Part shown: piece by piece, positions 6,756-37,360 of the stretch
Layout of the letters: each line of letters begins with the position of its first letter
Numbering within the stretch: position 1 is the first letter of the stretch
Assembly: GCA_021775615.1 (NCBI GenBank)
Contig: JAJFHL010000038.1
Span: 1-38,083 of the forward strand
Reading direction: 5' to 3'
DNA from: Hyphomicrobiales bacterium
GTDB taxonomy: Bacteria > Pseudomonadota > Alphaproteobacteria > Rhizobiales > JAJFHB01
DNA: 38,083 bases
The notes under the pieces: model-generated
Told to the model about the DNA's origin: nothing
Databases searched by the model: none
The model's input: the letters and a program-made list of their open reading frames with translations, nothing else
Position numbers and translations under genes: made by a program

Positions 6756-6804
6756 GAATTGCGGATAGGCAATCATTGATAAGGATCGCCGCCCCGTTCC
6801 ACAT

Positions 6805-6922: not shown

Positions 6923-6966
6923 ACATTGGGTAGTCGCTGGCACCAAGCTGCGCAAAGCCGCGCGCT

Positions 6967-7266
6967 TTACGCCGTGCCCTGGGGCGGGCCGCCCATGACG
7001 TTGTCTTCCTCGATGCGCTGCTCGATGTCGTCCAGCAGCTTTGAGAGCGCCGCCTCGATGTCGTCGCGGTCGACGCCTTCCTCCATGAGCGCGCCCAGCA
7101 GACCGGCCGCGCCATGCAAAGCAATGGAGTAGCGCGGCAGACCATTGCGCAGCTCCCAGGCGGCGGCGGCCGGGACCAGCGCCAGTTCCACGATGTCCTG
7201 CGTACGGCATGCCGGACAGTCTTCGGTCATGTCGTGCTCAATGATCTCGTTGAGGTCGATGGTCAT
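6967..7266 (-). CDS. Small CxxC-containing hypothetical protein
   Basis: A 99-residue protein that I do not recognise. It starts MTIDLNEIIEHDM and carries one CPAC pair near residue 20, which could bind metal or be redox active. The middle has a small-residue helix (ALVPAAAAWELRNG, HGAAGLLGALMEEG), and the C-terminal part is acidic and helical (DDIEAALSKLLDDIEQRIEED). A GGAG ribosome site precedes the ATG at 7266, though at a long 11-base spacing. It is downstream of the acyl-CoA dehydrogenase gene on the same strand (130 bp). Coding is supported by composition and the plausible start; function is unknown. Confidence 0.6.
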   Translation of the reverse strand: MTIDLNEIIEHDMTEDCPACRTQDIVELALVPAAAAWELRNGLPRYSIALHGAAGLLGALMEEGVDRDDIEAALSKLLDDIEQRIEEDNVMGGPPQGTA

Positions 7267-7396
7267 CGCATAATACTCCAATGAGGCGCGCTCGCCCGGC
7301 GGCACATCCTATAACAGCCCCGCGATGGACGGGTCATTATCAGGAATTCACAAAGTCGTGTTGAGAAATCGCGCCGCGGGCCGAGCCTGCCGCCTG

Positions 7397-8542
7397 TCAC
7401 AGGCCCATCTGCCGCACCGCAAGGTCGCGCATGATTTCCTCCGAACCGCCGCCGATGGCGATCACCTTGACCTCTCGGTAGATGCGCTCCACCGAGTTGC
7501 CGCGCAGGTAGCCGGCGCCGCCGAAAATCTGCATCGCCTCGCTGGCGCAGAACTCGAGCGCCTTGGTGGCGAAGAATTTGGCCTTGCAGATTTCCGCCAC
7601 CGGCATGTCGCCCTCGTTCACCTGCCAGCAGATCTGATTGAGGTAGGCTTCGGTGACATCGATGCGCGCCGACATGTCGGCGATCTTGTGACGGATCACC
7701 TGATGGCCGATGAGCGGCTGACCGAAGGTCTCGCGCTCCCGGGCCCAGGCGATGGAGTCGTCGAGACATACCTTCATCATGCCGAGCGCCACGGCAACGG
7801 CGCCGACTCGTTCCAGGTTGAAGTTTTCCATGATGGCGATGAACCCACGGTCTTCTTCGCCCATGAGGCATTCAGCCGGCACGCGGCAATCGTCGAAATG
7901 GAGTGCCGCCTGACTGGAGCACCACCATCCCATCTTGCGCTCGATCGCGGTGCGCGAGAATCCGGGGGCGTCGGCCTCGACGAAAAACAGGGATATGCCG
8001 GCGACGCCTTCTCCGCCGGTGCGCGCGCCGACAACGAAGTAGTCGGATTCCATGCCGCCGGTGATGAAAGTCTTGGTGCCGTTGATGATGAAGTGGTTGC
8101 CGTCGCGTGCGGCCCTGGTCTTGAGGTTCGCCACGTCCGACCCGCCGGAAGGTTCGGTGATGGCAAGGCTCGATCCCTTGCGGCCCGCGATCACTTCAGG
8201 CAGCACGCGGCGCTTGATATCCTCGGATGCGAGCCTGGCGATCGGATCGAGTGAGATGGTGCGGCCGCTCAAGCCGGCGAATACGCCGGTGGCGCCGCAC
8301 TTGGCGAACTCCTCGCCATAGGCGGCCCGCATGAAGCAGTCATCAAAGCCCAGTCCGCCGTATTTCTCGTCGATCCCGAAGCCGAACACGCCCAACGCAC
8401 CGGTCTTTTCGTGCAGTTCCCAGGGGAAATCGCCCGCCTCGTCCCACTCGTTGACATGGGGCCGGATCTCGACATCCACGAAATTCCGCAAGGTTTCACG
8501 GAACGCCGCACGCTGCTCGTTTTCAAACGGGTTCTTCATCAC
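7397..8542 (-). CDS. Acyl-CoA dehydrogenase (AtuD-like candidate)
   Basis: A 381-residue FAD-dependent acyl-CoA dehydrogenase of usual length. Visible hallmarks are the first family signature ITEPSGGSDVANLKTRA in the middle domain, and the C-terminal IFGGAGYLRGNSVERIYRE followed by VIAIGGGSEEIMRDL. The residue before GGS is not the glutamate that serves as base in medium-chain enzymes, so the base is probably elsewhere, as in the isovaleryl- or CaiA-like branches. Its ATG overlaps the tetR stop by 4 bp (ATGA), so the two are co-transcribed. Next to an AtuA/AtuC/AtuF-like operon it is a good candidate for the citronellyl-CoA-type dehydrogenation step; the exact substrate is inferred. Confidence 0.92.
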   Translation of the reverse strand: MMKNPFENEQRAAFRETLRNFVDVEIRPHVNEWDEAGDFPWELHEKTGALGVFGFGIDEKYGGLGFDDCFMRAAYGEEFAKCGATGVFAGLSGRTISLDPIARLASEDIKRRVLPEVIAGRKGSSLAITEPSGGSDVANLKTRAARDGNHFIINGTKTFITGGMESDYFVVGARTGGEGVAGISLFFVEADAPGFSRTAIERKMGWWCSSQAALHFDDCRVPAECLMGEEDRGFIAIMENFNLERVGAVAVALGMMKVCLDDSIAWARERETFGQPLIGHQVIRHKIADMSARIDVTEAYLNQICWQVNEGDMPVAEICKAKFFATKALEFCASEAMQIFGGAGYLRGNSVERIYREVKVIAIGGGSEEIMRDLAVRQMGL

Positions 8543-9258: not shown

Positions 9259-11058
9259 GTGTCCGAAAAGACGATCAGGATTGGGGGCGCAAGCGGGTTC
9301 TGGGGCGATGCGTCCCTGGCCACGCCGCAGCTTCTGGGCGCCGGCGGCCTCGACTACATCGTCTATGACTATCTCGCCGAAATCACCATGTCGATCATGG
9401 CGCGGGCGCGGGCGAAGAGCCCGGAGGCGGGCTTTGCCAGCGACTTCGTCTACTCCGCACTGAAAGGCAGCCTGAAGGACATCGCCCGGCAGAAGGTCAG
9501 GGTGATCTCGAATGCCGGCGGGGTCAATCCGGGCGCCTGCGCCGATGCGGTGCGAACGCTGGTCGAAGACATGGGCCTCGATTTGAAGATCGCCATCGTC
9601 GAAGGCGATGATCTTCTGGCGCGGCGCGACAAGGTCGCGGCGGACGGCCACCGGGAAATGTTCTCCGGCGCACGTTTCCCGGAACCTGACACGGTTGCCA
9701 GCATGAACGCCTATCTCGGCGCCTTTCCGATTGCCAGGGCGCTGGATCAGGGAGCGGATATCGTGATCACCGGCCGCTGCGTCGACAGCGCGGTGACGCT
9801 TGGCGCCTGTATCCACGAATTCGGCTGGTCGCGCGACCAACTTGACGAACTGGCCGGTGGAAGCCTTGCCGGACATATTCTCGAATGCGGCCCGCAGGCC
9901 TGCGGCGGCAACTTCACCGACTGGGAGCAGGTCTCGGACACCATTGAGGATATCGGCTATCCGATCGCCGAAATCGCCGCCGACGGATCCTTCACCGTCA
10001 CCAAGCCGGACGGCTCCGGCGGTCTTGTCAGCGTCGGCACCGTGGCGGAGCAGATGCTTTACGAAATCGGCGATCCGCAGGCCTATCTGCTGCCGGATGT
10101 GGTCTGCGATTTCTCCCAAGTTGCGCTCGAACAGCAGGGCGAAAACCGGGTGTACGTGTCAGGCGCTACCGGCCGGCCGGCTCCCGACACCTACAAGGTC
10201 TGCATGACGCATCAGGACGGCTTTCGCGGCGGACACGCGTTTGCCTTCTACGGCATCGATGCCGACCGAAAGGCGCAGCGCTTCGCCGATGCCGCCATCG
10301 CGCGGGCGCGCGGCAAGCTGAGGGCAAAGAACAGCGCCGACTTCACCGAAACCAGCGTCGAGATCATCGGCGCTGAAAGCCAGTTCGGCTCGGCCCGGGA
10401 ACTCGAAACTGCGCGAGAGGTCTCCGTCAAGATCGCCGCGCGGCATCCGGACCCCAAGGCCATCGACATCTTGATGCGCGAGGCGACCGGACTCGCCCTC
10501 TCCTCGCCGCCGGGCCTCAGTGGATTTGCCGGCACACGGCCGAAAGCCTCTCCGGTGCTTCGGCTGTTTTCGTTTGAGTTGCCGAAGCAGGACGTGCAGA
10601 TTTCCGTTGCCATGAACGGAACCACCGAAGCTTTCGAAAATGCCGCCGGCCAGCCACTCGATAGTGCCGCCATTGAACGGCCGGACGTGCCGGAGCCGCA
10701 CTCGGATGAAGGAGAGTTGACCGAGGTGCCGCTGATCAAACTGGCCTGGGGCCGCAGCGGCGACAAAGGCGACAAAGCGAATATCGGCATCATCGCGCGC
10801 GATCCCGATTACCTCCCATTCATCTGGAACGCCCTGACCGAAGCCGTGGTTGCCGAACGGTTTGCCCATTTTCTCGAGGGCAAGGTCGAGCGCTTCTATC
10901 TGCCGGGTTCGAATGCGATCAACTTCGTGTTGCATGATGTGCTCGGCGGCGGCGGCGTGGCCAGCCTGAGGAATGACCCCCAGGGCAAGGGATACGCCCA
11001 GCTGCTGCTGACCCATCCGGTTTCCGTGCCGGCCAAGCTCGCGAGCGCGCTGCAATGA
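9259..11058 (+). CDS. atuA: AtuA-like acyclic terpene utilisation protein (DUF1446)
   Basis: A 599-residue protein. Residues about 5-450 match the DUF1446/AtuA family: IGGASGFWGDASLATPQLL, then DYIVYDYLAEITMSIMARA, RVISNAGGVNPGACADAVR and DIVITGRCVDSAVTLGACIHEFGW. The C-terminal about 110 residues (LIKLAWGRSGDKGDKANIGI through a glycine-rich loop DVLGGGGVASLRND) form the small AtuA-like C-terminal domain, here fused as in Pseudomonas AtuA. The biochemical role of AtuA is not established; it is required for citronellol growth in Pseudomonas. The start is a GTG at 9259 with GGAGG 11 bases upstream. It is the first gene of a long operon and its stop overlaps the next ATG by 4 bp. Confidence 0.88.
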   Translation: MSEKTIRIGGASGFWGDASLATPQLLGAGGLDYIVYDYLAEITMSIMARARAKSPEAGFASDFVYSALKGSLKDIARQKVRVISNAGGVNPGACADAVRTLVEDMGLDLKIAIVEGDDLLARRDKVAADGHREMFSGARFPEPDTVASMNAYLGAFPIARALDQGADIVITGRCVDSAVTLGACIHEFGWSRDQLDELAGGSLAGHILECGPQACGGNFTDWEQVSDTIEDIGYPIAEIAADGSFTVTKPDGSGGLVSVGTVAEQMLYEIGDPQAYLLPDVVCDFSQVALEQQGENRVYVSGATGRPAPDTYKVCMTHQDGFRGGHAFAFYGIDADRKAQRFADAAIARARGKLRAKNSADFTETSVEIIGAESQFGSARELETAREVSVKIAARHPDPKAIDILMREATGLALSSPPGLSGFAGTRPKASPVLRLFSFELPKQDVQISVAMNGTTEAFENAAGQPLDSAAIERPDVPEPHSDEGELTEVPLIKLAWGRSGDKGDKANIGIIARDPDYLPFIWNALTEAVVAERFAHFLEGKVERFYLPGSNAINFVLHDVLGGGGVASLRNDPQGKGYAQLLLTHPVSVPAKLASALQ

Positions 11059-12677
11059 GCCGGTTTGCATCGACACTGGACACCGGATCCGACGCCTTTG
11101 CGGCGAACCGGCAGGGCATGCTTGCGCTTGTGGACAGGTTGCGCGCGGTGGAAGGCCGGGCCGCGGCCCTGTCCGAAAAGCGCCGCGACCGCTTCGAAGA
11201 ACGCGGCCAGCTGACGCCGCGCGAGCGCCTGGCGCGGCTGCTCGATCCGGGTATGCCGTTTGTCGAGCTCTATAATCTCGCGACCTATCTGGTGGACGAG
11301 CCCGACCCGGAGAAAAGCATTCCCGGGGCCAATATGATCACCGGCATCGGCTTCGTGAGCGGCGTCCGGTGCCTGGTGTTCGTCGACGACAGCGGCATCG
11401 AGGCCGGCGCGATGACCGAGAAGTCGGTCGAGAAGGGGAACGGCTGCCTCAAGATGGCGCTGCGGCAGAAGCTGCCCTTCGTCCATCTGGTGGAAAGCGC
11501 CGGGGCCAACCTGATGAAGTACACGGTGGAGCTCTGGGCGCATGGCGGCGGCCTGTTCCATGGCCTTGCCAAGCTGAGCGCCGCCGGCATCCCGACCATC
11601 ACCGTACTGCACGGTCTTTCGACCGCGGGCGGCGCCTACCATCCGGGCATGAGCGACTATGTCATCGGGGTGAAGAACAATGGCATGGCGGCACTCGGCG
11701 GGGCGGCGCTGGTGCGCGCGGCGACCGGCGAAGTCGCCGACGACCGGGATCTCGGCGGCACCGAAATGCATGCCTCGGTCACCGGTCTCGTCGAATACCT
11801 GGCGGAGGACGACGCCCATGGCATCGATCTCGCCCGTGACCTGATCGACCGGCTCGACTGGAACGCCCGTTGCCAGGTGCCGGCGCGCGGGGGCCATGAC
11901 GAACCGGCCGCATCCCCCGACGAGATCGCCGGTCTGGTGCCGGTCGACTACAGAACCCCTTACGACGTGCGCGAACTGGCCGCCCGCCTCGCCGACGGTT
12001 CCGACATCAGTGAATTCAAGCCGCGCTACGGTCTTTCCACCGTCTGCATGCACGCCAGGGTTTTCGGCCATCCCTGCGGCATCATCGGCAACAACGGCCC
12101 ATTCGATCCGGATGGGGCGACCAAGGCCGGCCAGTTCTTCCAGCTCTGCGATGCCGCAAACATCCCACTGGTTTTTCTCAACAACACCACCGGCTACATG
12201 GTCGGCACCGAATATGAGCGCGCCGGAATGATCAAGCACGGCTCGAAGATGATCCAGGCCGTCTCCAATGTGCGGGTGCCGAAGATCACGTTCTATATCG
12301 GCGCCAGCTTCGGAGCCGGAAACTACGGCATGTGCGGCTATTCCTACGAACCGGACTTTCTGTTCACCTGGCCCAACGCCCAGACCGGGGTAATGGGCGG
12401 CGAGCAGGCGGCGAAAACAATGGAACAGGTGATGACCAACGCCGCCCAGCGCCGTGGCCAGGAGGTCGATGAGGCGGCGATGAAGGCGCAGATGCAGGCC
12501 ATCGCCGACCATTTCGATCGCCAACACAGCGCCTTCTACACCTCCGGTCACATGCTCGACCACGGCATGATCGACCCGCGCGATACCCGAAAGGTTCTGG
12601 GGTTCTGCCTGGAAACCTGCCGCGAGGCGCGCCACCGCACATTGCTGCCGAACAGTTTCGGCGTGGCGCGCATGTAA
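11055..12677 (+). CDS. atuC: Acyl-CoA carboxylase beta (carboxyltransferase) subunit, geranyl-CoA carboxylase-like
   Basis: A 540-residue carboxyltransferase subunit. N-terminal RGQLTPRERLARLLDPG is typical. The first crotonase-like half has VESAGANL and HGLSTAGGAYHPGMSDY, then AATGEVADDRDLGGTEMH. The second half has LVFLNNTTGYMVGTEYERAGMIKHGSKM and GASFGAGNYGMCG. It would transfer the carboxyl group from biotin to a 3-methyl-branched enoyl-CoA. Co-occurrence with the AtuA-like gene favours geranyl-CoA over 3-methylcrotonyl-CoA. Structural work on the Pseudomonas enzyme attributes the difference largely to a Phe (methylcrotonyl type) versus Gly (geranyl type) in the active site, which needs an alignment to read here. 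It partners with the biotin subunit at 13503. Confidence 0.85.
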   Translation: MSRFASTLDTGSDAFAANRQGMLALVDRLRAVEGRAAALSEKRRDRFEERGQLTPRERLARLLDPGMPFVELYNLATYLVDEPDPEKSIPGANMITGIGFVSGVRCLVFVDDSGIEAGAMTEKSVEKGNGCLKMALRQKLPFVHLVESAGANLMKYTVELWAHGGGLFHGLAKLSAAGIPTITVLHGLSTAGGAYHPGMSDYVIGVKNNGMAALGGAALVRAATGEVADDRDLGGTEMHASVTGLVEYLAEDDAHGIDLARDLIDRLDWNARCQVPARGGHDEPAASPDEIAGLVPVDYRTPYDVRELAARLADGSDISEFKPRYGLSTVCMHARVFGHPCGIIGNNGPFDPDGATKAGQFFQLCDAANIPLVFLNNTTGYMVGTEYERAGMIKHGSKMIQAVSNVRVPKITFYIGASFGAGNYGMCGYSYEPDFLFTWPNAQTGVMGGEQAAKTMEQVMTNAAQRRGQEVDEAAMKAQMQAIADHFDRQHSAFYTSGHMLDHGMIDPRDTRKVLGFCLETCREARHRTLLPNSFGVARM

Positions 12678-19635: not shown

Positions 19636-20607
19636 ATGGCAAACTTGACTTTCAAGATACTCGTTCCGAGCAAACCACAGAAAACACGTGCCAAATGGCG
19701 TGCCGAAATCGAGGAAACGGGCGAGCGCTTTCTGATCGGCCAGACGGTTGGTTTCGCGGATGCCGACGGCAAGCACCGCGGTCTTTACCAAAGCCGCGTC
19801 ATGAAGGACATTCCACGGCTTCACTATGACCGGTTCACCGCAGAGGCCAACATCGGGCTTTGGGCACATTTCATGTGGCCCTCGGTCACCGCTGAAAGCG
19901 GCAATGGGCATCATCTTGTGGTCAACACCTATGATCGCGCGCGTTTTACCTTCGGGTTTTATCAACTGGCAGCCCATACGCCGAATCAGAACCTGATCAA
20001 GCTGTTCAGGGAACTCCTGGCGCTGCCTTCGGCAGCGACCTATTTTCCGGATCTATTCATCAGGAACGGACGTGTACACAGACGGGAAGGGACAGCCACC
20101 TACTCGCTGGAAAAGATCACGGAGATTCATCGTCCGAACGGCAAGACTGAAAAGCAGCTCATTGCATTCATGACTTATCTGAACCCTGATACCTACAACG
20201 CCACCGAACGAGAAGCGCTGAACGCTGCAAAGCTCATGCATTGGCTGGTAAACGATACGGCTGCTGTGAACGCATCTGAAACGGTTGCATTCACCATCAT
20301 GCATGACAAGCTGAAGCTCCAGGCGAGAGCGTTCAAACTCACCGGAAAAGACCCTCGGCTTGCGCTTTGGATATCCGATATTCGTCATCAGGGTCGCGGT
20401 GGGCCACGCAAAATAAATGCGGCGCTGGCAGAACCCACATTGAAGAAGCAACTCAGGGCTCTATCCAAGGTTGACGTCTACAATTCCAAGCATCCGAATG
20501 GCCGTTACGTCGCCAGACGTAAAGCGGTGAGAAAGTCTATTGACGTCCTGGTCAGCGAGAACCGCTTTGACAACGTCCTCCTGGGCGACGCACAGCTGCC
20601 GCTCTAG
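19636..20607 (+). CDS. Unrecognised 323-residue protein in a lower-G+C segment
   Basis: I do not assign a family. The ATG at 19636 has a GGAG site about 6 bases upstream. The N-terminal third has KILVPSKPQKTRAKWRAEIE and FLIGQTVGFADADGKHRGLY, and then an ordered core TAESGNGHHLVVNTYDRARF followed by TFGFYQLAAHTPNQNLIKLF. There is no signal peptide or membrane helix. The acid-containing loop followed by an aromatic strand faintly recalls lysozyme/chitosanase-like hydrolases, but that is only an impression. Two 60-base lines I counted are 50% and 52% G+C, against 62-77% in two lines from neighbouring genes, and codon choice differs, so recent transfer is likely. It is flanked by a usp remnant and an intact usp gene. 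Confidence 0.75.
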   Translation: MANLTFKILVPSKPQKTRAKWRAEIEETGERFLIGQTVGFADADGKHRGLYQSRVMKDIPRLHYDRFTAEANIGLWAHFMWPSVTAESGNGHHLVVNTYDRARFTFGFYQLAAHTPNQNLIKLFRELLALPSAATYFPDLFIRNGRVHRREGTATYSLEKITEIHRPNGKTEKQLIAFMTYLNPDTYNATEREALNAAKLMHWLVNDTAAVNASETVAFTIMHDKLKLQARAFKLTGKDPRLALWISDIRHQGRGGPRKINAALAEPTLKKQLRALSKVDVYNSKHPNGRYVARRKAVRKSIDVLVSENRFDNVLLGDAQLPL

Positions 20608-20687: not shown

Positions 20688-21140
20688 CTAAAGCCGCACC
20701 ACGTTGACCGAACACTTGGCGTGCCGCACCACGCGGGCCGTGTTGGGTCCGAGCAGATAGTCCGAGAGCTGCGGGCGGTGGGCGCCGATCACGATCTGAT
20801 CAACCCCAAGCTCGTCGGCGACATCGAGGATCTGTTCATAGACCGTGCCATGGCGGGCGATGGTATCCGCCTTGGTGCCCTTCGCCACGTTCTGCGCGAC
20901 AAACTCATTGAGATGATCGAGTGCGTTCTGCACGATCTTCTTCAAATCGTAGTCTTCCGAACCGCCCATTTCACCGCGAATGGCGTAACGGTAGTCGATG
21001 CCGGTGACCATGTTCGGCACAACCGTCATCACTGTCAGCGCCGCCTTCTGGCGATCCGCCTGTTCGACCCCTTCGGCCAGGACCTTGGCGGAGGTTTCGG
21101 TATCGCCGAGATCGACAGGAACGAGAATTTTTGAAGCCAT
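20688..21140 (-). CDS. Universal stress protein, UspF/UspG-like
   Basis: A 150-residue UspA-domain protein: KILVPVDLGDTETSAKVLAE at the N-terminus, TVMTVVPNM in the second strand, and IVIGAHRPQLSDYLLGPNTA near the C-terminus. The last block is the nucleotide-loop region of the UspF/G type (HRP and LLG), with an arginine where the G-2X-G-9X-G motif has its second glycine. Such proteins bind ATP or AMP and modulate stress and transport. It lies 19 bp downstream of the binding-lipoprotein gene and so is the third gene of the BCCT operon. A role in gating or signalling solute status for the transporter is inferred from position. Confidence 0.9.
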   Translation of the reverse strand: MASKILVPVDLGDTETSAKVLAEGVEQADRQKAALTVMTVVPNMVTGIDYRYAIRGEMGGSEDYDLKKIVQNALDHLNEFVAQNVAKGTKADTIARHGTVYEQILDVADELGVDQIVIGAHRPQLSDYLLGPNTARVVRHAKCSVNVVRL

Positions 21141-21159
21141 TGCCGCCTATCTCCTTTTT

Positions 21160-23016
21160 CTAGCTGTGCTCGGGACGGGTATAGAGCCACACCAATCCGA
21201 TAAACATCAGGAAGATCAGTATATTCAGGATGGACACGTCCGCCGCCGGGTTGATCGCCGCGGGCGGCGATGGAAGCACCGGAGACAATGCCGCAGCCTG
21301 CCTGAGTGTTGGATCGACCAGCAATGTGCCGGGAATGGCCCCGGTTATCGTCTTGATGGTCGCCGCCGGGATCGGTGCGATTGTCGTCGACACTGCGCTC
21401 GGCCCCTGATCGCCGACCGCATCGCCGGCCACCGGCGCCATGCCGGCAAGAACCACCTGAACGCCCAGCGCATCGATCGGCTGGCGCTGTACACGATAGG
21501 TGTTTGCAGGGACCCGCACCTCCCGCAGGAACGGATAGCGCACCAGATTGGCGCCTTCCTTCCAGGCATCCATCGGCAGCACGCCGAAGAGCACTCCGTC
21601 GATCATGCTTGAGATCGCCCGGTCGCCGAGAGGCGCAACGACGAGCGCCGCGTCCGCCTGACCCGAGGTCAGGGTTTCTATGATCGCTTCGGGCGTGCTT
21701 GTCGCGGCATGCTTCAAGGTCGCCTCAAGGGCGAGCCCCTGAAGGACCACCGCCGCAAGACGGGCGGCGGGTGAACCCTCCGGCCCCGTCGCCAGGGTCT
21801 TGATCGCCTTGAAATCCGGCCCATCGCCACTCTTGAGGCCGCTCTTGCCGATCAGATGCACCACATTCTGGCCCACCACGGCAACCGCCTCAAACCGGTC
21901 GTCCCGGCTTGGAACCGCGCCGGACAGATCGAAGAATGCATCGGCGCCGACCAACGCCATACGGGCATCGCCCGAGGCTATCTGGGCCAGGGGATCGATA
22001 TCGGCCATCACCTTGACCTCACGACCGGTGAAGGCGCGCCTCACGGCGCGCAACGCGGTGGTCGAAAGGTTCGATGCCTCTACCGAAGGCGTCGTCGACA
22101 CCACCAAAGGCGTGTCGGTGGTGACCGCGCCGCCCTTGATCAGCCCCATCTCGGCAAGGGCGCTGCGCGCCACGGAAGCGGCCGACCGACCCTCGATGTC
22201 GACCTTACCGTTCAGTGACGCCATGGCTGCCTCGTCAATCTTGCCGGCAAGCGCACTGAGGGCTGCACCCAGATTCTGGTGCTTGGCGAGCGCGTCTGCC
22301 CGCACCAGTGGCGCCAGCTGATAGACCGGGAAGAACTGCAGATCGTCCTGCAGCACGACCAGATCATACTCGATCACCTGACCGTCGGTGGTGTAGATCT
22401 CGGCGACATCAACGTCGCCATCGAGCAATTTGTCGTAGAGCTTCGCGCGATCGTCGAGCTTGACCACCTCTGTGGACCGGAACGCCATGCCGTAGCGCGC
22501 CAGCATCGGTGACAAGCCGTCCAGAGGACGCCTCTGGAAGTCATCCTCGATGCCGAAGTTCAGTTCTCCGGCCTTCGCCACCAGATCGGACATGGTGCTG
22601 AGCCCGAGCTCTTTGGCCCGGCCCCTGCGCATCGCCATGCCGTAATTGTTGGCAAAACCGACACGCGGCAGCCAGGTCATACCAAGCGGCTCGTAGATGG
22701 CCTTGACGCGCTCGGTCGCCTGGTCGCCGTCAGCTATCGGGTTCTGCCCGAGCATGACAAGACCGGTGCCGTTGTATTCCGGATAGACATCGATGTCGCC
22801 GCGCTTGAGCGCCTCCAGAATGGCCTGGGTGTTGGCGTACTCAACGGGGCCCTCGACTTTCAGCCCCTGCTCCTGCGCCAGGATCGCAAACATGTGCGAC
22901 AGGATGTTGCTTTCTCCAAAGTTCTTTGAACCGATCTTGACCGTGCTGCCATCTTCGCTGCAACCGACGAGCAGCATGCATACGGCAAGGAGGCTAAACA
23001 GAATTCGACTGGTCAT
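21160..23016 (-). CDS. Dual-domain solute-binding lipoprotein (OpuAC-type + TAXI-like) with C-terminal membrane helix
   Basis: A 618-residue protein. Residues 1-19 are a lipoprotein signal with lipobox LVGC (lipidated Cys19). Residues about 27-300 are an OpuAC/ProX-type osmoprotectant-binding domain: VKIGSKNFGESNILSHMFA, RGDIDVYPEYNGTGLVML and FGIEDDFQRRPLDGLSPML. Residues about 320-530 look like a second, TAXI/NMT1-like periplasmic domain (PLVVSTTPSVEAS, ATGPEGSPAARLAAVVLQGL, SGQADAALVVAPLG). A proline/alanine-rich linker leads to one membrane helix near residues 594-613 (ILNILIFLMFIGLVWLY). The frame is open to 23148, but the ATG at 23016 has an AAGGGAGA site. The gene follows a BCCT transporter gene by 22 bp, with no ABC ATPase or permease in the window. 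Domain 1 is firm; domain 2 is tentative. Confidence 0.85.
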   Translation of the reverse strand: MTSRILFSLLAVCMLLVGCSEDGSTVKIGSKNFGESNILSHMFAILAQEQGLKVEGPVEYANTQAILEALKRGDIDVYPEYNGTGLVMLGQNPIADGDQATERVKAIYEPLGMTWLPRVGFANNYGMAMRRGRAKELGLSTMSDLVAKAGELNFGIEDDFQRRPLDGLSPMLARYGMAFRSTEVVKLDDRAKLYDKLLDGDVDVAEIYTTDGQVIEYDLVVLQDDLQFFPVYQLAPLVRADALAKHQNLGAALSALAGKIDEAAMASLNGKVDIEGRSAASVARSALAEMGLIKGGAVTTDTPLVVSTTPSVEASNLSTTALRAVRRAFTGREVKVMADIDPLAQIASGDARMALVGADAFFDLSGAVPSRDDRFEAVAVVGQNVVHLIGKSGLKSGDGPDFKAIKTLATGPEGSPAARLAAVVLQGLALEATLKHAATSTPEAIIETLTSGQADAALVVAPLGDRAISSMIDGVLFGVLPMDAWKEGANLVRYPFLREVRVPANTYRVQRQPIDALGVQVVLAGMAPVAGDAVGDQGPSAVSTTIAPIPAATIKTITGAIPGTLLVDPTLRQAAALSPVLPSPPAAINPAADVSILNILIFLMFIGLVWLYTRPEHS

Positions 23017-23038
23017 CTCATCTCTCCCTTTCCGTACT

Positions 23039-24592
23039 TCACTCTGCGGCCTGGCCGGTCGCGGCGCCGCGCGCCTCGATCGGTCCCGGCAGATCCGTCC
23101 GTTCCTTTCGGATTTCCCGCAAGAAACCGACAATCTGTAACAGGACAATCACCGTGAACGGGATTGCCCCGGTGATCGCCATGGCCTTTGCCACGGTGAC
23201 CGAGCCGGAGAACAAGGTGCCCGCGGTGATGGCGGCGATCAGCGTGCCCCAAACCATCTTCTGCAGAACCGGTGGGTTGAGATTGCCGTCGGTGGTCATC
23301 ATCGAGAGCACGAAAGTGCCGGAATCCGCCGAAGTGACCAGGAAGATGAACATCAGCGAAACGGCCAGGATGTTCAGGATGTCGCCGGCTGGGAAATACC
23401 CCAGGAAGCCGAACAAGGCCTTGGTGACGTCTTCAAAGATCAGCTCCTTCAGGCCGCCGCCGCCGTGCAGTTCGATGTAGAAGCCTGCTGCGCCAAAGAC
23501 CGCAAACCACAGCATCGAGAACAGGGTGGGCACCAGGATGACGCCCATGCAGAACTCGCGAATGGTCCGCCCGCGCGAAATGCGCGCCACGAAGATGCCG
23601 ATGAACGGCCCCCACGCGATCCACCAGATCAGATAGGTCAGGGTCCACCCGGCGCTCCATCCGGTGAGCCCCTCGAACGGGAACAGCTTGAACGACATGG
23701 TGATGATGCTCGACAAATAGGCGCCGATTGAGTCGATGAAGGCTTCCAGAATGAACTGGGTCGGCCCGGCGAACAACACCAGGAGCATGATCGCGATGGC
23801 GATCACCATGTTGACGTTGGACAGGATCTTGATGCCCTTGTCGACGCCGGTGGTCGCCGACAGCATGTAGCAGACGAACAGGATCGCCAGGATCGTCAGC
23901 GACGTGCCCACGGTTTCGCCGGTTCCAAAGGCGTAGAACGAACCGGAGCGCACGGCCAAGGTGCCCATGGCCAGTGACCCGGCCAAACCGAACACGACGG
24001 AGAGAACCGCCAAAATATCGGCAATATTTCCGATCGACTCGCCGGCTTTGCCGCGGAACAGGAATTTGATCGGCGTCGAAATCATCGACGGCTCGCCGCG
24101 CCGGAAGGTGAAATAGGCAATCACCAGGGCGCAGACCGCATATATCGACCAGGCGTGCAGCCCCCAGTGCAGGTTGGTGATGACGAGCGCCTGACGGGCG
24201 GCGGCCGGGGTTCCGCCTTCCATGCCGGGCGGCGAGATGTAGTGATACATCGGCTCGGCCGGGCCCCAGAGCAGGAGACCCGAGCCCATGCCGCCGGCGA
24301 ACAGCATGGCGATCCACGATGCCGTCGAGAACTCGGGCTCTTCATCGTCGGCGCCAAGGCGGATTTTGCCATAGGGGCCGAATGCCATGTATCCGCTCAG
24401 GATCAAGAAGCAGGTGCAGATGAACAGCCAGGCCCAGCTGCCGCCCTGAAGCATATAATTCGTGAAGCCCAGCATTGTGCCAGTCATGCTGCCGGGATCG
24501 ATCAGACCCCATGCGCCAATGCCCACGCAAAACGCCATGGAAACGACGAAAACGAGATTCATTGATAGCGCTGATTTTCCAACGTCGGGCAT
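23039..24592 (-). CDS. BCCT family transporter (betaine/carnitine/choline type)
   Basis: A 517-residue membrane protein with about 12 helices. Family marks are the glycine-rich stretch FAGGMGSGLLLWGPAEPMYH, the WWIAWGPFIGIFVARISRGR block (the Trp-rich signature in modified form) and SADSGTFVLSMMTTDGN. BCCT carriers import betaine, choline, carnitine or related zwitterions by Na+ or H+ symport, or exchange. The long cytosolic tails that sense osmolarity in BetP-type proteins are absent, so simple uptake is more likely. The ATG at 24592 follows a strong GAGGGGAGG site. It is the first gene of the minus-strand operon BCCT, binding lipoprotein, usp, and is divergent from the aminotransferase-dehydrogenase fusion. 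Substrate unknown. Confidence 0.93.
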   Translation of the reverse strand: MPDVGKSALSMNLVFVVSMAFCVGIGAWGLIDPGSMTGTMLGFTNYMLQGGSWAWLFICTCFLILSGYMAFGPYGKIRLGADDEEPEFSTASWIAMLFAGGMGSGLLLWGPAEPMYHYISPPGMEGGTPAAARQALVITNLHWGLHAWSIYAVCALVIAYFTFRRGEPSMISTPIKFLFRGKAGESIGNIADILAVLSVVFGLAGSLAMGTLAVRSGSFYAFGTGETVGTSLTILAILFVCYMLSATTGVDKGIKILSNVNMVIAIAIMLLVLFAGPTQFILEAFIDSIGAYLSSIITMSFKLFPFEGLTGWSAGWTLTYLIWWIAWGPFIGIFVARISRGRTIREFCMGVILVPTLFSMLWFAVFGAAGFYIELHGGGGLKELIFEDVTKALFGFLGYFPAGDILNILAVSLMFIFLVTSADSGTFVLSMMTTDGNLNPPVLQKMVWGTLIAAITAGTLFSGSVTVAKAMAITGAIPFTVIVLLQIVGFLREIRKERTDLPGPIEARGAATGQAAE

Positions 24593-24898: not shown

Positions 24899-27868
24899 AT
24901 GACGACAATCGACGACTTGAAAAAGCAGAGGGAGGCATCGCTCAAGGCCACGGCGGGAGGCCCGCCGGCGCGCACCTCCAATCCGTTTTTCGGGGTCGGT
25001 CCGATCACCGATCTGGCGACCGATGAAGTGGACGCCCGGCTGCTGCGGCAGGAGTTCGACGCCTGGCTCGAAGCCAACTACCGCAAGCTCGACGACCGGG
25101 GTCAGGACATCGGCTCCTTCACGTCGGCCGAGATCGGACGCTCGATGCATCGCGGCTACCCGGCGGACAAGATCCTCATCGACATGATGCGCGAGATCCA
25201 CCGCTATTTCGAATTTCCCAAGACCAACAAGATGGCGGTGGGACTGGGCGGCGGCCACTCGGGCTTTACAGTCTGCGTCCTGCACCTGATGAACGCCAAC
25301 GATGCCGGCCAACACATCTATGTGGACACGCCGAAACCGGAAACCGAAGAGGGATCGGGCGGCGGCTTCTTCCGCCAGTCCTGGGGCGCCCAGATGATCG
25401 AAATGCAGCGCTACGCCGCGAACGGCGACGAGGCGCGCATCCACTTTGCCGACACCGAAGGCTCAATCCCCAGCGCCGACACGCTCCAGGAGATGGGGAT
25501 CAAGCTGTTTGTCGGGGTCGGTCACGAGACCACCGGCGCGACAACCTATACGGCCGAGGACGTGCGCAACCTCATCGAATGGATCGACCGCGATCCGCCG
25601 CATCATCATGCCGTCCTCGATGCCACATCGATGCTCGGCGCCATGCCCTGGGGCGACGAGACGGTTCGCGAGCTCGTGACGAAGTGCTGCATGTTCATGC
25701 CGTTCCAAAAGGCGATCGGCGGCATCTCCGGCTATTTCGTGGTGTCGCTGACACCGCAGGCGCTCAATCTCATCGAGGTCAATCAGGATCATCCCTCGTG
25801 GGCGATCCCGCGCCAGCTCAAGATCGCGGTGCCGCGCGACCCCAAGAAGCCGCTGTCCGGCGAAAGCACAACGGCGCTCGGGCCTATCTACGACCCGGAT
25901 GCGGACGTCATGCTGGGCGGTATCATCAACACTTACTCGGCGCTGGCTTTTGCGGAAACGACGTTCGGCCTCTTGCGGTCCGAGCGCAAGATCGGCCCGG
26001 TGTCACAGGCAAACAAACGCTCGGCCGCCAACCGCAAGGCGATCAACGACTGGGTGGCCGGCAACGACCTGCTTGAGCTTGGCGTTGCCGAAGAAGAACG
26101 GCGCGGCGCCGCGGTCACGCTGCTCAAAGTCAATGATCCGGGGATCACGGATGCGGATACCCATGCCGCCATCATCGCCAAATCGAAACAGATTCTGGGG
26201 TATGAAGGACTGACCCATCCCAATGGCGACTACGAGCGCGGGCTCGACGTTGCGCGCTATGTCAACGCCTTCCCCGGGACGCCCGGCGACTACCGCGCCT
26301 GGATCGGCGGCATCCGCCCCGTAGACGACATCACCGCCCTGCTCGACAATCTGGCCTACGCCTATCACCGCGCCAAGATCGTGGTGCTAGAAGAGCAGCT
26401 TGCCGAGTTCGGCGAAACCTTCGAGCCCGCCGGACTGAGTGGCGAGCGCCTGCGCAAGGATGATCCCGACCGGGCCTACAAGGTTCTGGTGGCCGACATG
26501 GTCGGCCTCAGGTTCGACGCCAAAGGCAGGCCGGACCATTCCGAAGTGCGCGCCTATATCAAAGCCAAGGGCGGCGTGTTCCACGAGGGCCCATTGCGCC
26601 AGAAGGCGAAACTCGAGACCGGCCGGATCCACTTCTTCTACCAGCCGGACCTCTCGACCGCGGACGAGATCCTGCCGCAGACCGAAGAGGGCCAGTACGA
26701 TGCGGTGATCGCGGCGGCGACCTTCCTGCCCGACGCCTGCCAGTTCGCCGAAGGCGGCGTGCGCATTGGTGCCGGCACCGGCAATATGGGTGCCAAATGC
26801 TGGGGCGGCGGCAATGGCGATGGCGGCACGGCACCCCTAATGAACACGCCGAGCTTCAACTCGCGGGCCACGGCGCAGATGGCGATGAAGGCGCTTTTGA
26901 AGGTGCTGCCGGACCTGCCGGTCGGCACATTGCACGACCGTGTGGTGGACGGCGCCTTCGACACCGGCAAGAACCTGCGCGAGTTTCCGACCGAGAAGAT
27001 CGAGGGCAAGCGGATCGCGGTCCTGGGTTATGGCAATATCGGTCGCGAAGTGGCCAAGCTGGCGCAGGCCTTCGGCATGCAGGTCGCGGTCCATGCCCGC
27101 CCGCATCACCGCGACTGGATCGTGTCGGAAGGTTTTGAGTTCGCCGCAACCGCGGAGGACGCGGCGCGCGGCGCCGACGTCATCACTCCGCATACCGGCC
27201 TTGGGGCGCTCAATGCCGACACCGGCAAGTTCACCAATGAAGGCTTCATCGACGAGGTCGTGCTGAACGCTCTGAACGACGGCGCCGTGGTGATCAACTA
27301 TGACCGCGGCGAAGTGATCGACGCGGGCGCCCTCGATGCGGCGCTGGCCAGCGGCAAAGTGCGCTATGCCGCCATCGATGCGGATATCTTCATGGATGCC
27401 GAAGGCAATATCACCGGCCCGATGGCGCCCTATCGCGGGATCGAGACGCGTCACAGGGGCAAGCTGGAACTGCTGCCGCATGCCGCTGCCGACACCGAGC
27501 ACCTAAGCCGGGTCGAAGGCGCCAGGCAGGCGGTCGACCAGATCATCGAGTGCATCCAGCACAAATGCGTCATCAACCTGAAAGGCGAGCTGCCAGAGGG
27601 CTATGTGAGCGCCGGACCGGAGACCGTCGACGGCGTCGGCAAGGTGACGGCCAACCGGCTGGCAGGCGCGGTCGTGGACGAAGATGCCCTGCAGCAGGCG
27701 CGCGCCGCGGCCGAGCGCATCGCCGCCATCTGGGGGGCGGTGTCCGCCATCGAGGATCCGGACAGGCGCGGCGCCTTGCTGGAGCGCTATGGCAAGGACC
27801 TGGTGCTGCAGTCAAACCGCTACGGGTCGCTGATGGAGCGGTTGGGTCTCAAGGGGCCGTTCGGCTGA
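24899..27868 (+). CDS. Fusion of class V aminotransferase-like and D-2-hydroxyacid dehydrogenase-like domains
   Basis: A 989-residue two-part enzyme. Residues about 20-510 resemble the SerC-type class V aminotransferase fold: MAVGLGGGHSGFTVCVLHLM, HAVLDATSMLGAMPWGDETV and the lysine segment FMPFQKAIGGISGYF, with Lys271 the likely PLP site. Residues about 525-960 resemble SerA: IGAGTGNMGAK, NTPSFNSRATAQMAMKALL, the NAD loop VLGYGNIGREVAKLAQAFGM (Gly710-Gly715), Arg803 in YDRGEVID and His861 in LPHAAADTEH. The expected catalytic Glu is displaced (IDADIFMDAEG). There is no ACT domain. This unites the second and first steps of serine synthesis, or an analogous 2-oxoacid/hydroxyacid route. I took the ATG at 24899 (GAGG site 12 bases upstream). 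The substrate is unknown. Confidence 0.85.
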   Translation: MTTIDDLKKQREASLKATAGGPPARTSNPFFGVGPITDLATDEVDARLLRQEFDAWLEANYRKLDDRGQDIGSFTSAEIGRSMHRGYPADKILIDMMREIHRYFEFPKTNKMAVGLGGGHSGFTVCVLHLMNANDAGQHIYVDTPKPETEEGSGGGFFRQSWGAQMIEMQRYAANGDEARIHFADTEGSIPSADTLQEMGIKLFVGVGHETTGATTYTAEDVRNLIEWIDRDPPHHHAVLDATSMLGAMPWGDETVRELVTKCCMFMPFQKAIGGISGYFVVSLTPQALNLIEVNQDHPSWAIPRQLKIAVPRDPKKPLSGESTTALGPIYDPDADVMLGGIINTYSALAFAETTFGLLRSERKIGPVSQANKRSAANRKAINDWVAGNDLLELGVAEEERRGAAVTLLKVNDPGITDADTHAAIIAKSKQILGYEGLTHPNGDYERGLDVARYVNAFPGTPGDYRAWIGGIRPVDDITALLDNLAYAYHRAKIVVLEEQLAEFGETFEPAGLSGERLRKDDPDRAYKVLVADMVGLRFDAKGRPDHSEVRAYIKAKGGVFHEGPLRQKAKLETGRIHFFYQPDLSTADEILPQTEEGQYDAVIAAATFLPDACQFAEGGVRIGAGTGNMGAKCWGGGNGDGGTAPLMNTPSFNSRATAQMAMKALLKVLPDLPVGTLHDRVVDGAFDTGKNLREFPTEKIEGKRIAVLGYGNIGREVAKLAQAFGMQVAVHARPHHRDWIVSEGFEFAATAEDAARGADVITPHTGLGALNADTGKFTNEGFIDEVVLNALNDGAVVINYDRGEVIDAGALDAALASGKVRYAAIDADIFMDAEGNITGPMAPYRGIETRHRGKLELLPHAAADTEHLSRVEGARQAVDQIIECIQHKCVINLKGELPEGYVSAGPETVDGVGKVTANRLAGAVVDEDALQQARAAAERIAAIWGAVSAIEDPDRRGALLERYGKDLVLQSNRYGSLMERLGLKGPFG

Positions 27869-29617: not shown

Positions 29618-31120
29618 TTACTTGATCTTCTTGATCTCGCCGGACGCCAGTTTTTCCTGATAATCCGCCAGAAGCGCCTTGACCTTCGGCATCAGCATGT
29701 AGAGGCCGATGATGTTGGCGATGGCCATGGCGAAGATCATCGCATCGGAGAAGTCGATGACCGGACCCAGGCTCATGGACGCGCCGATCACCACGAAGAC
29801 ACAGAAGATCGCCTTGAACACGAGCTCCTTGGCCTTGCCTTCACCGAACATGTAGGTCCAGGCCTTGAGGCCGTAGTAGGACCAGGAGATCATGGTCGAG
29901 AAGGCGAACAGCACCGCCGCGATGGCCAGCACGTAACCAAAGCCGGCGATGTCGGCTTCAAAGGCTTTCGAGGTGAGCGCTATACCGGTGACATCATTGC
30001 CGGGTATCCAGGATCCGGTGATGGTGATCACCAGGGAGGTCATGGTGCAGATGACGACGGTGTCGATGAACGGCTCGAGAAGCGCGACATAGCCTTCCGT
30101 CACCGGATGCTTGGTCACCACCGCGGAGTGCGCGATGGAGGCCGAACCGATACCCGCTTCGTTGGAAAAGGCGGCCCGCTTGAAACCCTGGATCAGGGCG
30201 CCGATGGCACCGCCCGCAACGGCTGCAGGAGCGAAAGCACCGGTGAAGATGGCGCTGACCGCGGCCGGGACCTCGGTGATGTTCATCAAGATGATGATCA
30301 GTGCAGCGCCGACATAAATAATCGCCATGCCGGGCACGATCTTTTCCGTCACCTTGGCGATCGACTTGATGCCGCCAATGATCACGACGCCAACCAGCAC
30401 CGCCATTATCAGACCGAACAGCCAGCCCTTGCCTTCGAAGAACGGTATGATCGAGGAGATCTGGGCGAAGGACTGGTTGGCCTGGAACATGTTGCCGCCG
30501 CCAAGCGCGCCGCCGATACAGCAGATCGAAAAGAAGATCGCCAGGAACTTGCCGAGCGCCGCCTTGCCGTCTTCCGAAAGGCCTTTGCTCAGATAGTACA
30601 TGGGGCCGCCGGAGACGGTGCCGTCCTTGTATTCGTTGCGGTAGTGAACACCGAGGGTGCATTCGGTGAACTTGGAGGCCATGCCGAGCAGGCCGGCCAG
30701 GATCATCCAGAACGTGGCGCCGGGACCACCGAGATAGACGGCGACACCGACACCGGCGATATTGCCGAGGCCGACGGTGCCGGACAGCGCGGTGGCAAGT
30801 GCCTGGAACGGCGTGACTTCACCGGCATCCTTTGGGTCGAAATAGTCGCCGCGGACAAGTTCGATGGAATGCTTGAAGCCGCGGAACTGAATGAAGCCGA
30901 AGTAGAGTGTGAACACCACCGCCGCGATCACCAGCCAGCCGACGATCAGCGGGAACTGGGTGCCGAACACCGGAACCGAATAGAAAACGGTCGAGACGAT
31001 CGGATTGACGATCGGTGCGATCATCTCACTGATGGCCTTGTCGATGCCATCCGACTGGGCAAAGGCGAGGCTTGACATGAAGGGCAAGCTGAGGCCGGCC
31101 CCGAGAATTGATTTTAGCAT
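29618..31120 (-). CDS. Alanine/glycine:cation symporter family (AGCS) protein
   Basis: A 500-residue membrane protein with about 11 helices. AGCS marks are [55 protein letters not shown] and [19 protein letters not shown]. Family members import alanine, glycine or serine with Na+. The ATG at 31120 has a GAGGGG site 8 bases upstream. It lies 49 bp downstream of a universal stress protein gene on the same strand, and divergent to that pair are an Lrp-like regulator and an AlaX-type editing protein. This context favours alanine. The substrate is inferred, the family is clear. Confidence 0.94.
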
Positions 31121-31169: not shown

Positions 31170-31601
31170 CTACGGCACGATGGTGACGGGCACCGGCGCA
31201 GCCTGCGCCAGCGAGATCACCAGTGAGCCGAGCAGCCGGTTGGCCAGCCCCGTACCGCCCGAGCGGCCGATGATGATTTGAACGGCCCCTTTGGCCTCGG
31301 CGATCTCACACAGGAGCTCGGCGGCATTGCCGTGACGCGCCTCGCATGTGGTTTCGACGCCGGCCGCGTTGAGCTCATCAGTCACCGGCTGAACAATGGC
31401 ATTGGCGCGGTCGAGCTCCTGCTCGCGCCGCATGTGCCGCTCGGCCAGTTCTTCAGGCGTGTGAAAGCTGTAAGGCGACCACTCCAGCACCTGAACCAGG
31501 TGTAGCTTGGCCTTGGCCAGTTTGGCCCGCTCCGCTGCGAAATCAGCCGCATGGCGCGCTGACTCCGAACCGTCGAAGCCGACGATGAAAATGTCGGTCA
31601 T
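31170..31601 (-). CDS. Universal stress protein (UspA-type, ATP-binding motif intact)
   Basis: A 143-residue UspA-domain protein: IFIVGFDGSESARHAADFAA at the start and IIIGRSGGTGLANRLLGSLV near the end. The latter is an intact G-2X-G-9X-G-S ATP-binding motif, in contrast to the usp at 20688. A GGAGG site 8 bases before the ATG at 31601 sets the start over the longer open frame. It is the first gene of an operon with the AGCS symporter. A role in sensing energy or controlling the symporter is inferred from position only. Confidence 0.92.
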   Translation of the reverse strand: MTDIFIVGFDGSESARHAADFAAERAKLAKAKLHLVQVLEWSPYSFHTPEELAERHMRREQELDRANAIVQPVTDELNAAGVETTCEARHGNAAELLCEIAEAKGAVQIIIGRSGGTGLANRLLGSLVISLAQAAPVPVTIVP

Positions 31602-31733
31602 TCCTGTTTCCTCCAATACCGCAACCGGTCGCCCCGCCTGAAGGAAGGCTGTCGCGCCCATTGCATCGGGCGCAGTTCAGGTGTCGAGCGAAACGCCCAC
31701 GGCCAGATTCGTTGCAAGCCTTCCGTCTATTAT

Positions 31734-35675: not shown

Positions 35676-36602
35676 ATGGACCCAATGATTTCGATCTCCG
35701 GACTGTCGAAGACCTATGCGTCCGGGTTCCATGCCCTGAAAGATGTCAACCTCGACATAAAGCCCGGAGAGATCTTTGCGCTGCTCGGGCCCAACGGGGC
35801 CGGCAAGACGACGCTGATCTCGATCATCTGCGGCATTGTCACCCCCTCCGAGGGCAGCGTCACGGTCGATGGGCATGACATTGTGCGCCACTACCGCGCC
35901 ACGCGGTCGCTGATCGGGCTGGTGCCGCAGGAACTGACCACCGACACCTTCGAGACGGTGTGGAACACGGTCAAGTTCTCGCGCGGCCTGTTCGGCAAGC
36001 GCTCCGATCCGGCCTTTATCGAGAAAACCCTCAAGGAACTGACCTTGTGGGACAAGAAGGACAGCCAGATCATGACGCTGTCCGGCGGCATGAAGCGGCG
36101 CGTGATGATCGCCAAGGCGCTGTCGCACCAGCCGCAGGTCCTGTTTCTCGATGAACCCACCGCCGGGGTCGACGTCGAGCTGCGCAAGGATATGTGGGGG
36201 CTGGTGCGCGGACTGCGCGAGGCCGGCGTCACGATCATTCTGACCACGCACTATATCGAAGAGGCCGAAGAGATCGCCGACCGGATTGGGGTCATCAATA
36301 ACGGTGAGCTCATTTTGGTGGAGAACACGGCCGAACTCATGCGCAAGCTCGGCAAAAAGCAACTCACCCTGGAGCTGCACAAAAAGATCGATGCGGTCCC
36401 GGCCGAGCTGTCGCAGCATAACCTGGAGCTCGCCGCCGATGGCGGGGCGCTGGTCTACACCTACGATACCCAGGCCGACCGCACCGGTATAACCGCCTTG
36501 CTTCGCGACCTGCACGAGGCCGGCATCAGGTTCCGCGATCTGCAGACCACACAAAGCTCGCTGGAGGAAATCTTCGTGAGCCTTTTGAGGACCGATACAT
36601 GA
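35676..36602 (+). CDS. ABC-2 type exporter ATPase
   Basis: A 308-residue ATP-binding subunit. Walker A is GPNGAGKTT, the Q-loop is GLVPQEL, the signature is LSGGMKRRV, Walker B is [12 protein letters not shown] and the switch histidine is in TTHYIEEAE. The C-terminal extension of about 90 residues, ending with [12 protein letters not shown], is typical of drug/polysaccharide exporters such as YadG or DrrA. It drives export together with the permease that starts inside its stop codon (ATGA). The start at 35676 has GGAAG upstream; the residues MDP precede the usual [11 protein letters not shown], so the second ATG at 35685 is a possible alternative. Substrate unknown. Confidence 0.94.
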
Positions 36603-37360
36603 ACTACTTTGCGGTCTGGACGATCTACAAACAGGAGATGGCGCGCACCAAACGCACATTGTTCCAGAGCGTCGTCTCACCGGTGATCTCGACCTGCCTC
36701 TACTTCGTCGTGTTCGGGTCGGCCATCGGATCGCGGATCACGGAGATCGACGGGGTGAGCTACGGCGCCTTCATCGTTCCCGGGCTGATCATGCTGTCGC
36801 TGCTGACGCAAAGCGTCACCAACGCATCTTTCGGCATCTACTTTCCAAAGTTCATAGGCACCATCTACGAGGTGCTTTCAGCGCCGATCTCGTTCTTCGA
36901 AATCGTGCTTGGATATGTCGGCACGGCGGCGACCAAGGCGATGTTTCTGGCGATGATCATTCTGGCGACGGCGCATCTCTTCGTGCCGCTTGAGATCGCC
37001 CACCCGTTCTGGATGCTGCTCTTCATGGTGCTGACCGCGCTCACCTTTTCGCTGCTTGGGTTCATTATCGGCATCTGGGCCGACAATTTCGAGAAGCTGC
37101 AGGTCATCCCGCTCCTGATCATCACTCCGCTCGCCTTTCTCGGCGGGACCTTCTACTCGATCTCAATGCTGCCGCCGGTCTGGCAGACGGTGTCGCTGTT
37201 CAATCCGGTGGTCTATCTGGTGAGCGGGTTCCGCTGGAGCTTCTATGAAATCGCCGATGTCAGCGTCGGCGTCAGTCTCGCCATGGTCGGCCTGTTTCTC
37301 GGCCTGTGCCTTGCGATCGTGTGGTGGATCTTCCGCACCGGCTATCAGATCAAGAGCTAG
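36599..37360 (+). CDS. ABC-2 type transporter permease (YadH-like)
   Basis: A 253-residue membrane protein with six helices. N-terminal [20 protein letters not shown] and [20 protein letters not shown], and the C-terminal [20 protein letters not shown] and [20 protein letters not shown] match the ABC-2 exporters of the YadH/NodJ type. It pairs with the ATPase upstream (overlap 4 bp) to export an unknown drug, lipid or polysaccharide. Its TAG stop is directly followed by the start of a degenerate RIME-like repeat. Confidence 0.93.

Follow-up and report, generated by a model that had tools for sequence, protein, structure and literature searches.

Can a carrier of the BCCT family be served by a binding protein? 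The question is raised by a three-gene cassette in the window analysed here, the whole 38,083-nucleotide contig JAJFHL010000038.1 of a Hyphomicrobiales bacterium (assembly GCA_021775615.1). Genes for a BCCT carrier, a 618-residue lipoprotein and a universal stress protein (usp) follow one another in the same direction, with 22 bp between the first two and 19 bp between the second and the third (Table 1). A preliminary description of this DNA had reported this arrangement, and the coordinates of the open reading frames (ORFs) confirm it. Current annotation splits the pair into a 'glycine betaine ABC transporter substrate-binding protein' (ABC, ATP-binding cassette) and a 'BCCT family transporter'. 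We propose, with a probability of about 60%, that the OpuAC domain of the lipoprotein feeds a betaine-like solute to the BCCT carrier and that the three genes make up one transport system.

The two-domain lipoprotein gene is linked to a BCCT gene

The lipoprotein combines an OpuAC domain with a TAXI-like domain, and we examined where genes for such two-domain proteins lie in other genomes. A BCCT gene at least 60% identical to that of the window lies directly upstream, on the same strand, in all 22 two-domain loci with a readable upstream region. Four of these loci come from named records and the other 18 from genomes of the same class as the window, one of them the window's own; the pair is thus found beyond the genome in which it was first noticed. 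Between the BCCT and lipoprotein genes the gap measures -4 to +35 nt in 21 loci (all but that of Paracoccus aminovorans). A 4-nt overlap occurs in four loci, with starts chosen by script, and for locus L091 a later start is equally likely. Downstream of the lipoprotein gene, usp is present in 18/22 loci, once on a second contig of the same genome, and is missing at L012, L094, L101 and L120. L094 and L101 belong to a subtype without usp, and beside their cassettes lies a gene for a linear amide C-N hydrolase of the choloylglycine hydrolase family (10020-11087 (+) and 5985-7055 (-), respectively). Beyond BCCT, lipoprotein and usp, no gene cluster recurs in more than four of the 24 stretches examined, and no DctQM-type TRAP membrane gene recurs with the cassette in these stretches.

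A 23rd locus, L148 (genome G1147), was dropped because its contig breaks off within the lipoprotein gene. Martelella NC20 is nearly identical to NC18 and was not counted; there too the BCCT gene adjoins the lipoprotein gene. Genome G1153 contributes two contigs, L151 and L152, which were counted once; L152 was kept out of the lipoprotein alignment on account of its contig end.

Two-domain lipoproteins occur in 6/397 genomes of the order, 2/385 of the class and 2/398 of the phylum, tallies that may be low since these scans scored at most five candidates per genome. By family, they occur in 8 of 23 genomes, in 1 of 10 in another family and in 5 of 69 in a third (one split over two contigs). The samples for order, class, phylum and families overlap. 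The 455 plasmid records that match OpuAC add cases on plasmids of P. aminovorans and of two near-identical Martelella strains. Further cases come from a Rhodovulum genome and a metagenome-assembled genome (MAG) of Anaerolineae; the Chloroflexota label of locus L011 is taken solely from the title of its MAG.

Chance neighbourhood is ruled out as the source of this linkage by the 22/22 loci over several lineages, and misassembly by the presence of the pair on complete plasmids as well. Long ORFs at L011, L012 and L147, considered as BCCT-lipoprotein fusions, are out-of-frame extensions over the BCCT gene. On the P. aminovorans plasmid (L100, 7395-8971 (+)) the BCCT reading frame is interrupted in the deposited sequence, through either sequencing error or decay, with lipoprotein and usp intact. 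L119 (2636-4237 (-)) and L148 (2-850 (+)) each have another, distantly related BCCT gene (35% identical) close to the cassette. Distances among the lipoproteins and among the BCCT proteins correlate closely (r 0.95, 19 loci); this is expected for any co-inherited genes and is therefore not counted as evidence of contact.

Is an ABC transporter also at hand? Queries from one S. meliloti system (E 1e-6) placed no OpuA-type ABC permease or ATPase gene within 3 kb of any of the 22 two-domain loci. The two-domain lipoprotein thus does not travel with OpuA/ProVW-type ABC genes, in line with the first account of it. As a control we used 83 OpuAC loci without the second domain, drawn from a single similarity scan and two samples of genomes: 78 of the best 80 of 94 relatives (L011 and L012 being two-domain) and five from the two samples. 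An ABC permease lies within 3 kb in 74 of these loci and an ATPase in 70, and a BCCT gene lies within 7 kb in 0/83, some of the stretches being short. Fisher tests on the linkage give very small p values, with related loci treated as independent. The window's own genome has OpuAC genes at four other places: three are accompanied by genes for an ABC ATPase and a permease, and one has an ATPase gene adjoining.

The linkage was also examined from the side of the carrier. Only 3 of 294 plasmid BCCT records reach 60% identity to the BCCT of the window, and the same three, out of 455 plasmid OpuAC records, are those that match the lipoprotein along its full length. The 27 other plasmid BCCT records among the matches listed stay at or below 43.6% identity. 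Likewise, in 255 genomes of the class (E at most 1e-110), only three matches besides the window's BCCT were obtained, 40-42% identical to it. In the samples examined, BCCTs at least 60% identical to the window's were met only beside the lipoprotein. Within 3 kb on each side of five other, picked and annotated plasmid BCCT genes no OpuAC gene is listed, the gene table being incomplete; the stretch of a sixth picked BCCT lacks annotation. On a Roseobacter denitrificans plasmid (L159, 2989-5842 (+)), a small ORF and then gltS come after a BCCT gene that has no OpuAC gene beside it.

The OpuAC domain keeps a betaine-type pocket

The preliminary description had read a lipobox, an OpuAC domain, a TAXI-like domain and a C-terminal membrane helix in the lipoprotein, and sequence, Pfam and model bear out all four. 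Cys19 of the lipobox is invariant in 21/21 aligned homologues. At the place of the C-terminal helix a hydrophobic stretch is visible by eye in 21/21 full-length members, with Asn-Pro just ahead of it in 16/21, also counted by eye. We modelled the lipoprotein with AlphaFold2 on 42 aligned sequences (mean predicted local distance difference test score, pLDDT, 72.6). Confidence is high for the OpuAC domain (mostly above 90), low to middling for the second domain and low for the linker; within the helix at residues 592-613, ten-residue means lie between 73 and 88. The motifs and the predicted helix suggest that the protein carries a lipid anchor and is held in the membrane at both ends.

Pfam OpuAC matches residues 25-288 with E 3e-50. 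Against solved structures the model of this domain gives target TM-scores of 0.83-0.93 over the first 34 rows, which are ProX, OpuBC, OpuCC, EgtU and sensors built from such proteins. For Archaeoglobus fulgidus ProX we take the ligand residues to be K13, Y63, T66, Y111, R149, Y190 and Y214. K13, Y63, T66, R149 and Y214 align to K31, Y81, T84, R163 and Y232 of the lipoprotein, which are invariant in 21/21 members. Y111 aligns to Y125 (Y in 20/21, F in one), and Y190 aligns to position 208, where 11 members have Y, 8 F, 1 V and 1 L (Y or F in 19/21). The alignment to ProX thus finds the OpuAC fold together with the betaine cage and the carboxylate residues. Since this pocket is kept, the OpuAC domain should bind a solute that bears a quaternary ammonium group and a carboxylate.

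The TAXI-like domain lacks known ligand residues

Pfam NMT1_3 matches lipoprotein residues 373-526 (E 5.2e-9, 36.6 bits against a cut-off of 27), and NCBIfam TRAP_TAXI matches residues 338-533 at E 3.5e-11 with 42.5 bits, under its cut-off of 84.35. A sequence profile built from nine members reaches solved TAXI proteins at E 1.2e-9. Modelled alone from three sequences, the domain gave a best model with a mean pLDDT of 71.1, the other four models scoring 60.0 to 39.7. Fold searches with this model rank TAXI proteins of TRAP transporters first: Foldseek matched VCA0144 at E 1.8e-12, and VIA matched 9ibp_A at Z 17.0 over 230 residues (root-mean-square deviation 4.0), with Z 12.3-13.0 for further TAXI chains and up to about 12 for other binding proteins. 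Fold and sequence profile together identify the second domain as TAXI-like.

The earlier expectation that this domain also binds solute is weakened by our results. Glutamate determinants of TAXI proteins, described for VcGluP (Tyr Y45 and Gln Q93) and for TtGluBP in the text of PMC11574862, are absent in 21/21 members. Where the ligand glutamine (Gln78 of TtGluBP) aligns, all 21 have G, A, S or P, and no tyrosine occurs in the stretch, placed by eye, where the counterpart of VcGluP Y45 is expected. Mean pairwise identity is 0.41 in the TAXI-like domain versus 0.52 in the OpuAC domain, the more conserved of the two. At L092 a TAXI-TRAP pair, a fused permease and a TAXI protein, lies divergently beside the cassette (4371-7440 (-)). 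One might imagine a TAXI gene placed in this way as the source of the TAXI-like domain.

The linked carriers form one clade

The carrier of the window matches Pfam PF02028 with 534.6 bits (cut-off 27) and NCBIfam TIGR00842 with 444.3 (cut-off 407.55), and the motif GGMGSG is located in its third transmembrane segment (TM3). It has W143, W148 and Y151 in TM4 and W323, W324 and W327 in TM8, and the motifs recur in 20/20 aligned linked BCCTs. Going by BetP, these TM4 and TM8 positions form the substrate box, and the linked carriers keep the aromatic box of betaine carriers.

In a tree of 34 BCCT sequences, the 21 linked BCCTs form one group with support of 94/97, present in 95% of 200 bootstrap trees. 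The 13 other BCCTs, two further ones of the window's own genome among them, fall outside. L100 (broken frame) and L149 (contig end) were excluded from the BCCT alignment, and L100 also from the tree. Comparison of 20 linked BCCTs with 12 others gives nineteen residues that are fixed (at least 95%) in the former and never occur in the latter. Five of these nineteen fall within residues 465-471, which we take as the periplasmic turn between TM11 and TM12; equal clustering arose in 123 of 20000 random draws. The cluster is suggestive at most because shared ancestry fixes residues too.

How the cassette may work

Gene order, co-occurrence, the kept pocket residues and the domain folds come directly from our analysis of sequences and models. 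From them we infer a complex of the two proteins, the hand-over of substrate, the identity of the substrate, the coupling ion and a role for Usp. The lipoprotein would sit next to the BCCT carrier on the outer side of the inner membrane, anchored by its lipid and its C-terminal helix. There the OpuAC domain would catch a betaine-like solute with a quaternary ammonium group and a carboxylate and pass it to the outward-open carrier, which would import it using an ion gradient. Lacking the residues known to hold the ligand in TAXI proteins, the TAXI-like domain more likely serves for docking or bridging. Usp probably acts on the cytoplasmic side as a modulator of the carrier, a role that TeaD has for the TRAP transporter TeaABC. 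The tethered, betaine-type binding domain was not met without the carrier, nor the carrier clade without the binding domain, and delivery of substrate is therefore the best explanation for the pair. The idea of a binding-protein-dependent BCCT system, put forward in the preliminary description, is strengthened in its gene linkage (BCCT at 22/22 loci, ABC at 0/22) and loses ground in the part that has the second domain bind as well.

The main rival, which we hold to be unlikely though worth keeping in sight, makes the lipoprotein a solute sensor or allosteric regulator that binds betaine outside and switches the carrier, with no substrate passed on. It draws on the family knowledge that BCCT carriers need no binding protein, on the apparent double anchoring of the lipoprotein, which could keep it in permanent contact with the carrier, and on the gene for a Usp regulator in the same operon. 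It fits less well with a kept ProX-type pocket and with the binding proteins of ABC, TRAP and TTT systems, all of which deliver substrate; the same is proposed, unverified, for TAXI-GltS. Delivery by the lipoprotein has to face several observations. To our knowledge, known BCCT carriers work alone. Both the co-occurrence and the clade-specific residues would also be expected with a sensor. The cassette is rare and patchy (6/397 genomes of the order, 2/398 of the phylum), no BCCT-lipoprotein fusion was seen among the loci, and the loci share ancestry, the BCCT tree giving about four deep lineages, with long-branch warnings. Furthermore, the four other OpuAC genes of this genome are linked to ABC genes, which means that other routes for betaine import exist.

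Could each binding domain instead offer a different solute to one carrier? Two binding-protein folds in tandem invite this reading, and tandem binding domains with different ligands exist in ABC systems such as GlnPQ. We consider it improbable, given the G, A, S or P at the TAXI glutamine position, the missing tyrosine (by eye) and the lower conservation of the TAXI-like domain, although a different ligand is possible. Least probable is that the lipoprotein is an orphan binding protein for an ABC permease encoded elsewhere, the BCCT gene being merely co-expressed for the same solute. The genome does have other OpuAC genes with ABC partners, and, to go by the title of a reference, one ABC system is reported to recruit several binding proteins. 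Against this stand the two-domain loci, with an ABC permease at none of the 22 and a BCCT gene at every one, and the BCCTs of this clade, which were met in our samples only together with the lipoprotein. Delivery of a betaine-like solute to the BCCT carrier remains the reading we prefer. Neighbouring genes were also considered as pointers to the substrate (FAD and GMC oxidoreductases near L137-L140, the amide hydrolase at L094 and L101, the TAXI-TRAP pair at L092); they are weak and inconsistent, and we name none on their account.

Features of the window

Shine-Dalgarno-like stretches, read from the sequence, precede the starts of the lipoprotein and usp genes. The mechanical ORF of the lipoprotein begins further out, at 23148. 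Usp matches NCBIfam UspF at E 2.8e-24 with 85.9 bits, under the cut-off of 166. The statement in the preliminary description that the window holds no ABC ATPase or permease was wrong: an ABC ATPase and an ABC-2 membrane protein are encoded at 35676-37360 (+). Since they are of exporter type and about 11 kb from the cassette, the argument built on that statement is unharmed.

Table 1. Coordinates of the cassette, of the parts of the lipoprotein and of the ABC pair in the window.
Feature	Position	Strand	Basis or remark
BCCT-family carrier gene	23039-24592	minus	ORF, 517 aa; Pfam BCCT E 2.4e-160
Two-domain lipoprotein gene	21160-23016	minus	618 aa counted from ATG at 23016
Signal peptide with lipobox LVGC (residues 16-19, Cys19)	22960-23016	minus	read directly
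OpuAC/ProX-type binding domain, residues 25-294	22135-22944	minus	Pfam, model, fold search
TAXI-like binding-protein domain, residues 300-535	21412-22119	minus	Pfam NMT1_3, profile, fold search
Linker, residues 536-590	21247-21411	minus	low model confidence
C-terminal membrane helix, residues 592-613, basic residues behind	21178-21243	minus	predicted
usp gene (universal stress protein, UspF-like)	20688-21140	minus	150 aa; Pfam Usp E 3.2e-24
DrrA-like ABC ATPase	35676-36602	+	exporter type
ABC-2 membrane protein	36599-37360	+	exporter type

A second transporter-usp pair lies in the window, with usp (31170-31661) directly upstream of a gene for an AGCS sodium/alanine-type symporter (29618-31120), both on the minus strand. 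Divergent from the BCCT gene, 24899-27868 (+) encodes a 989-residue protein that apparently consists of two joined halves, one phosphoserine-aminotransferase-like and one 2-hydroxyacid/phosphoglycerate dehydrogenase-like. On the other side, a 323-residue protein (19636-20607 (+)) adjoins the cassette, convergent with usp; its best Pfam match reaches only E 0.098, and no NCBIfam match was obtained at E 0.1.

Relation to known transporters

The cassette was at first likened to TRAP and TTT transporters. A closer published parallel exists in TAXI-GltS of Bordetella pertussis (BP0403/BP0402), as the main text of PMC12344293 presents it. In both systems an elongated, multi-domain TAXI-fold lipoprotein is encoded directly downstream of a secondary carrier, the genes overlap or lie close together, TRAP membrane genes are lacking and coupling is inferred from linkage. 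A docking role for our TAXI-like domain would be comparable to that of the bridging domain proposed for BP0403. The carrier here is a BCCT and not a GltS, which belongs to the ESS family and is modelled in that paper as an elevator. The betaine pocket lies in an OpuAC domain that BP0403, as described there, lacks. Furthermore, unlike TAXI-GltS, the cassette combines a TAXI-like domain without the glutamate residues with a C-terminal membrane helix and a usp gene. TAXI-GltS has fusions and measured glutamate binding, whereas no fusion was seen for the present cassette. According to PMC12344293, only TRAP and TTT carriers were earlier known with a soluble binding protein, and GltS was added to them on the strength of gene linkage, overlapping genes, fusions and ligand binding, with coupling awaiting experimental proof. 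The words 'BCCT' and 'betaine' each occur 0 times in its main text.

The resemblance to TRAP transporters extends to TeaABC/TeaD of Halomonas elongata, which likewise unites a binding protein with an ion-driven carrier, a clustered usp gene and import of compatible solutes (PMC9006882). TeaD is described there as an ATP-binding modulator of TeaABC. Unlike TRAP systems, our cassette has no TRAP membrane component and its carrier is unrelated. The binding proteins of ABC importers (A. fulgidus ProX, OpuBC, OpuCC, EgtU) share the OpuAC-type domain and the ProX pocket residues with the lipoprotein, but the 22 two-domain loci are without an ABC ATPase or permease within 3 kb. BetP, BetT, OpuD, TmaT and DddT have the full BCCT domain and the aromatic box in common with the carrier. 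Those BCCTs we take to act alone, whereas the members of the present clade that were seen adjoin a binding lipoprotein. Two BCCT carriers of Spiribacter salinus are termed single-component systems in the text of PMC5818414. In open PMC full texts, subscription papers and preprints being outside this scope, we found no report of a binding-protein-dependent BCCT system.

What would such a system mean for the family? BCCT carriers have the LeuT fold, and the pair would therefore test the idea that a binding-protein partner may require an elevator. That idea comes from PMC12344293, whose authors suggest that partnership with a binding protein may depend on some aspect of the elevator mechanism and see in further classes a test of this. 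Work on BetP has given a good understanding of BCCT structure and of the transport cycle, so the pair could be rebuilt in vesicles. Together our data suggest that a scattered set of bacteria possesses an unrecognised kind of binding-protein-dependent transporter, which, if true, would likely add a high-affinity route for betaine-type solutes.

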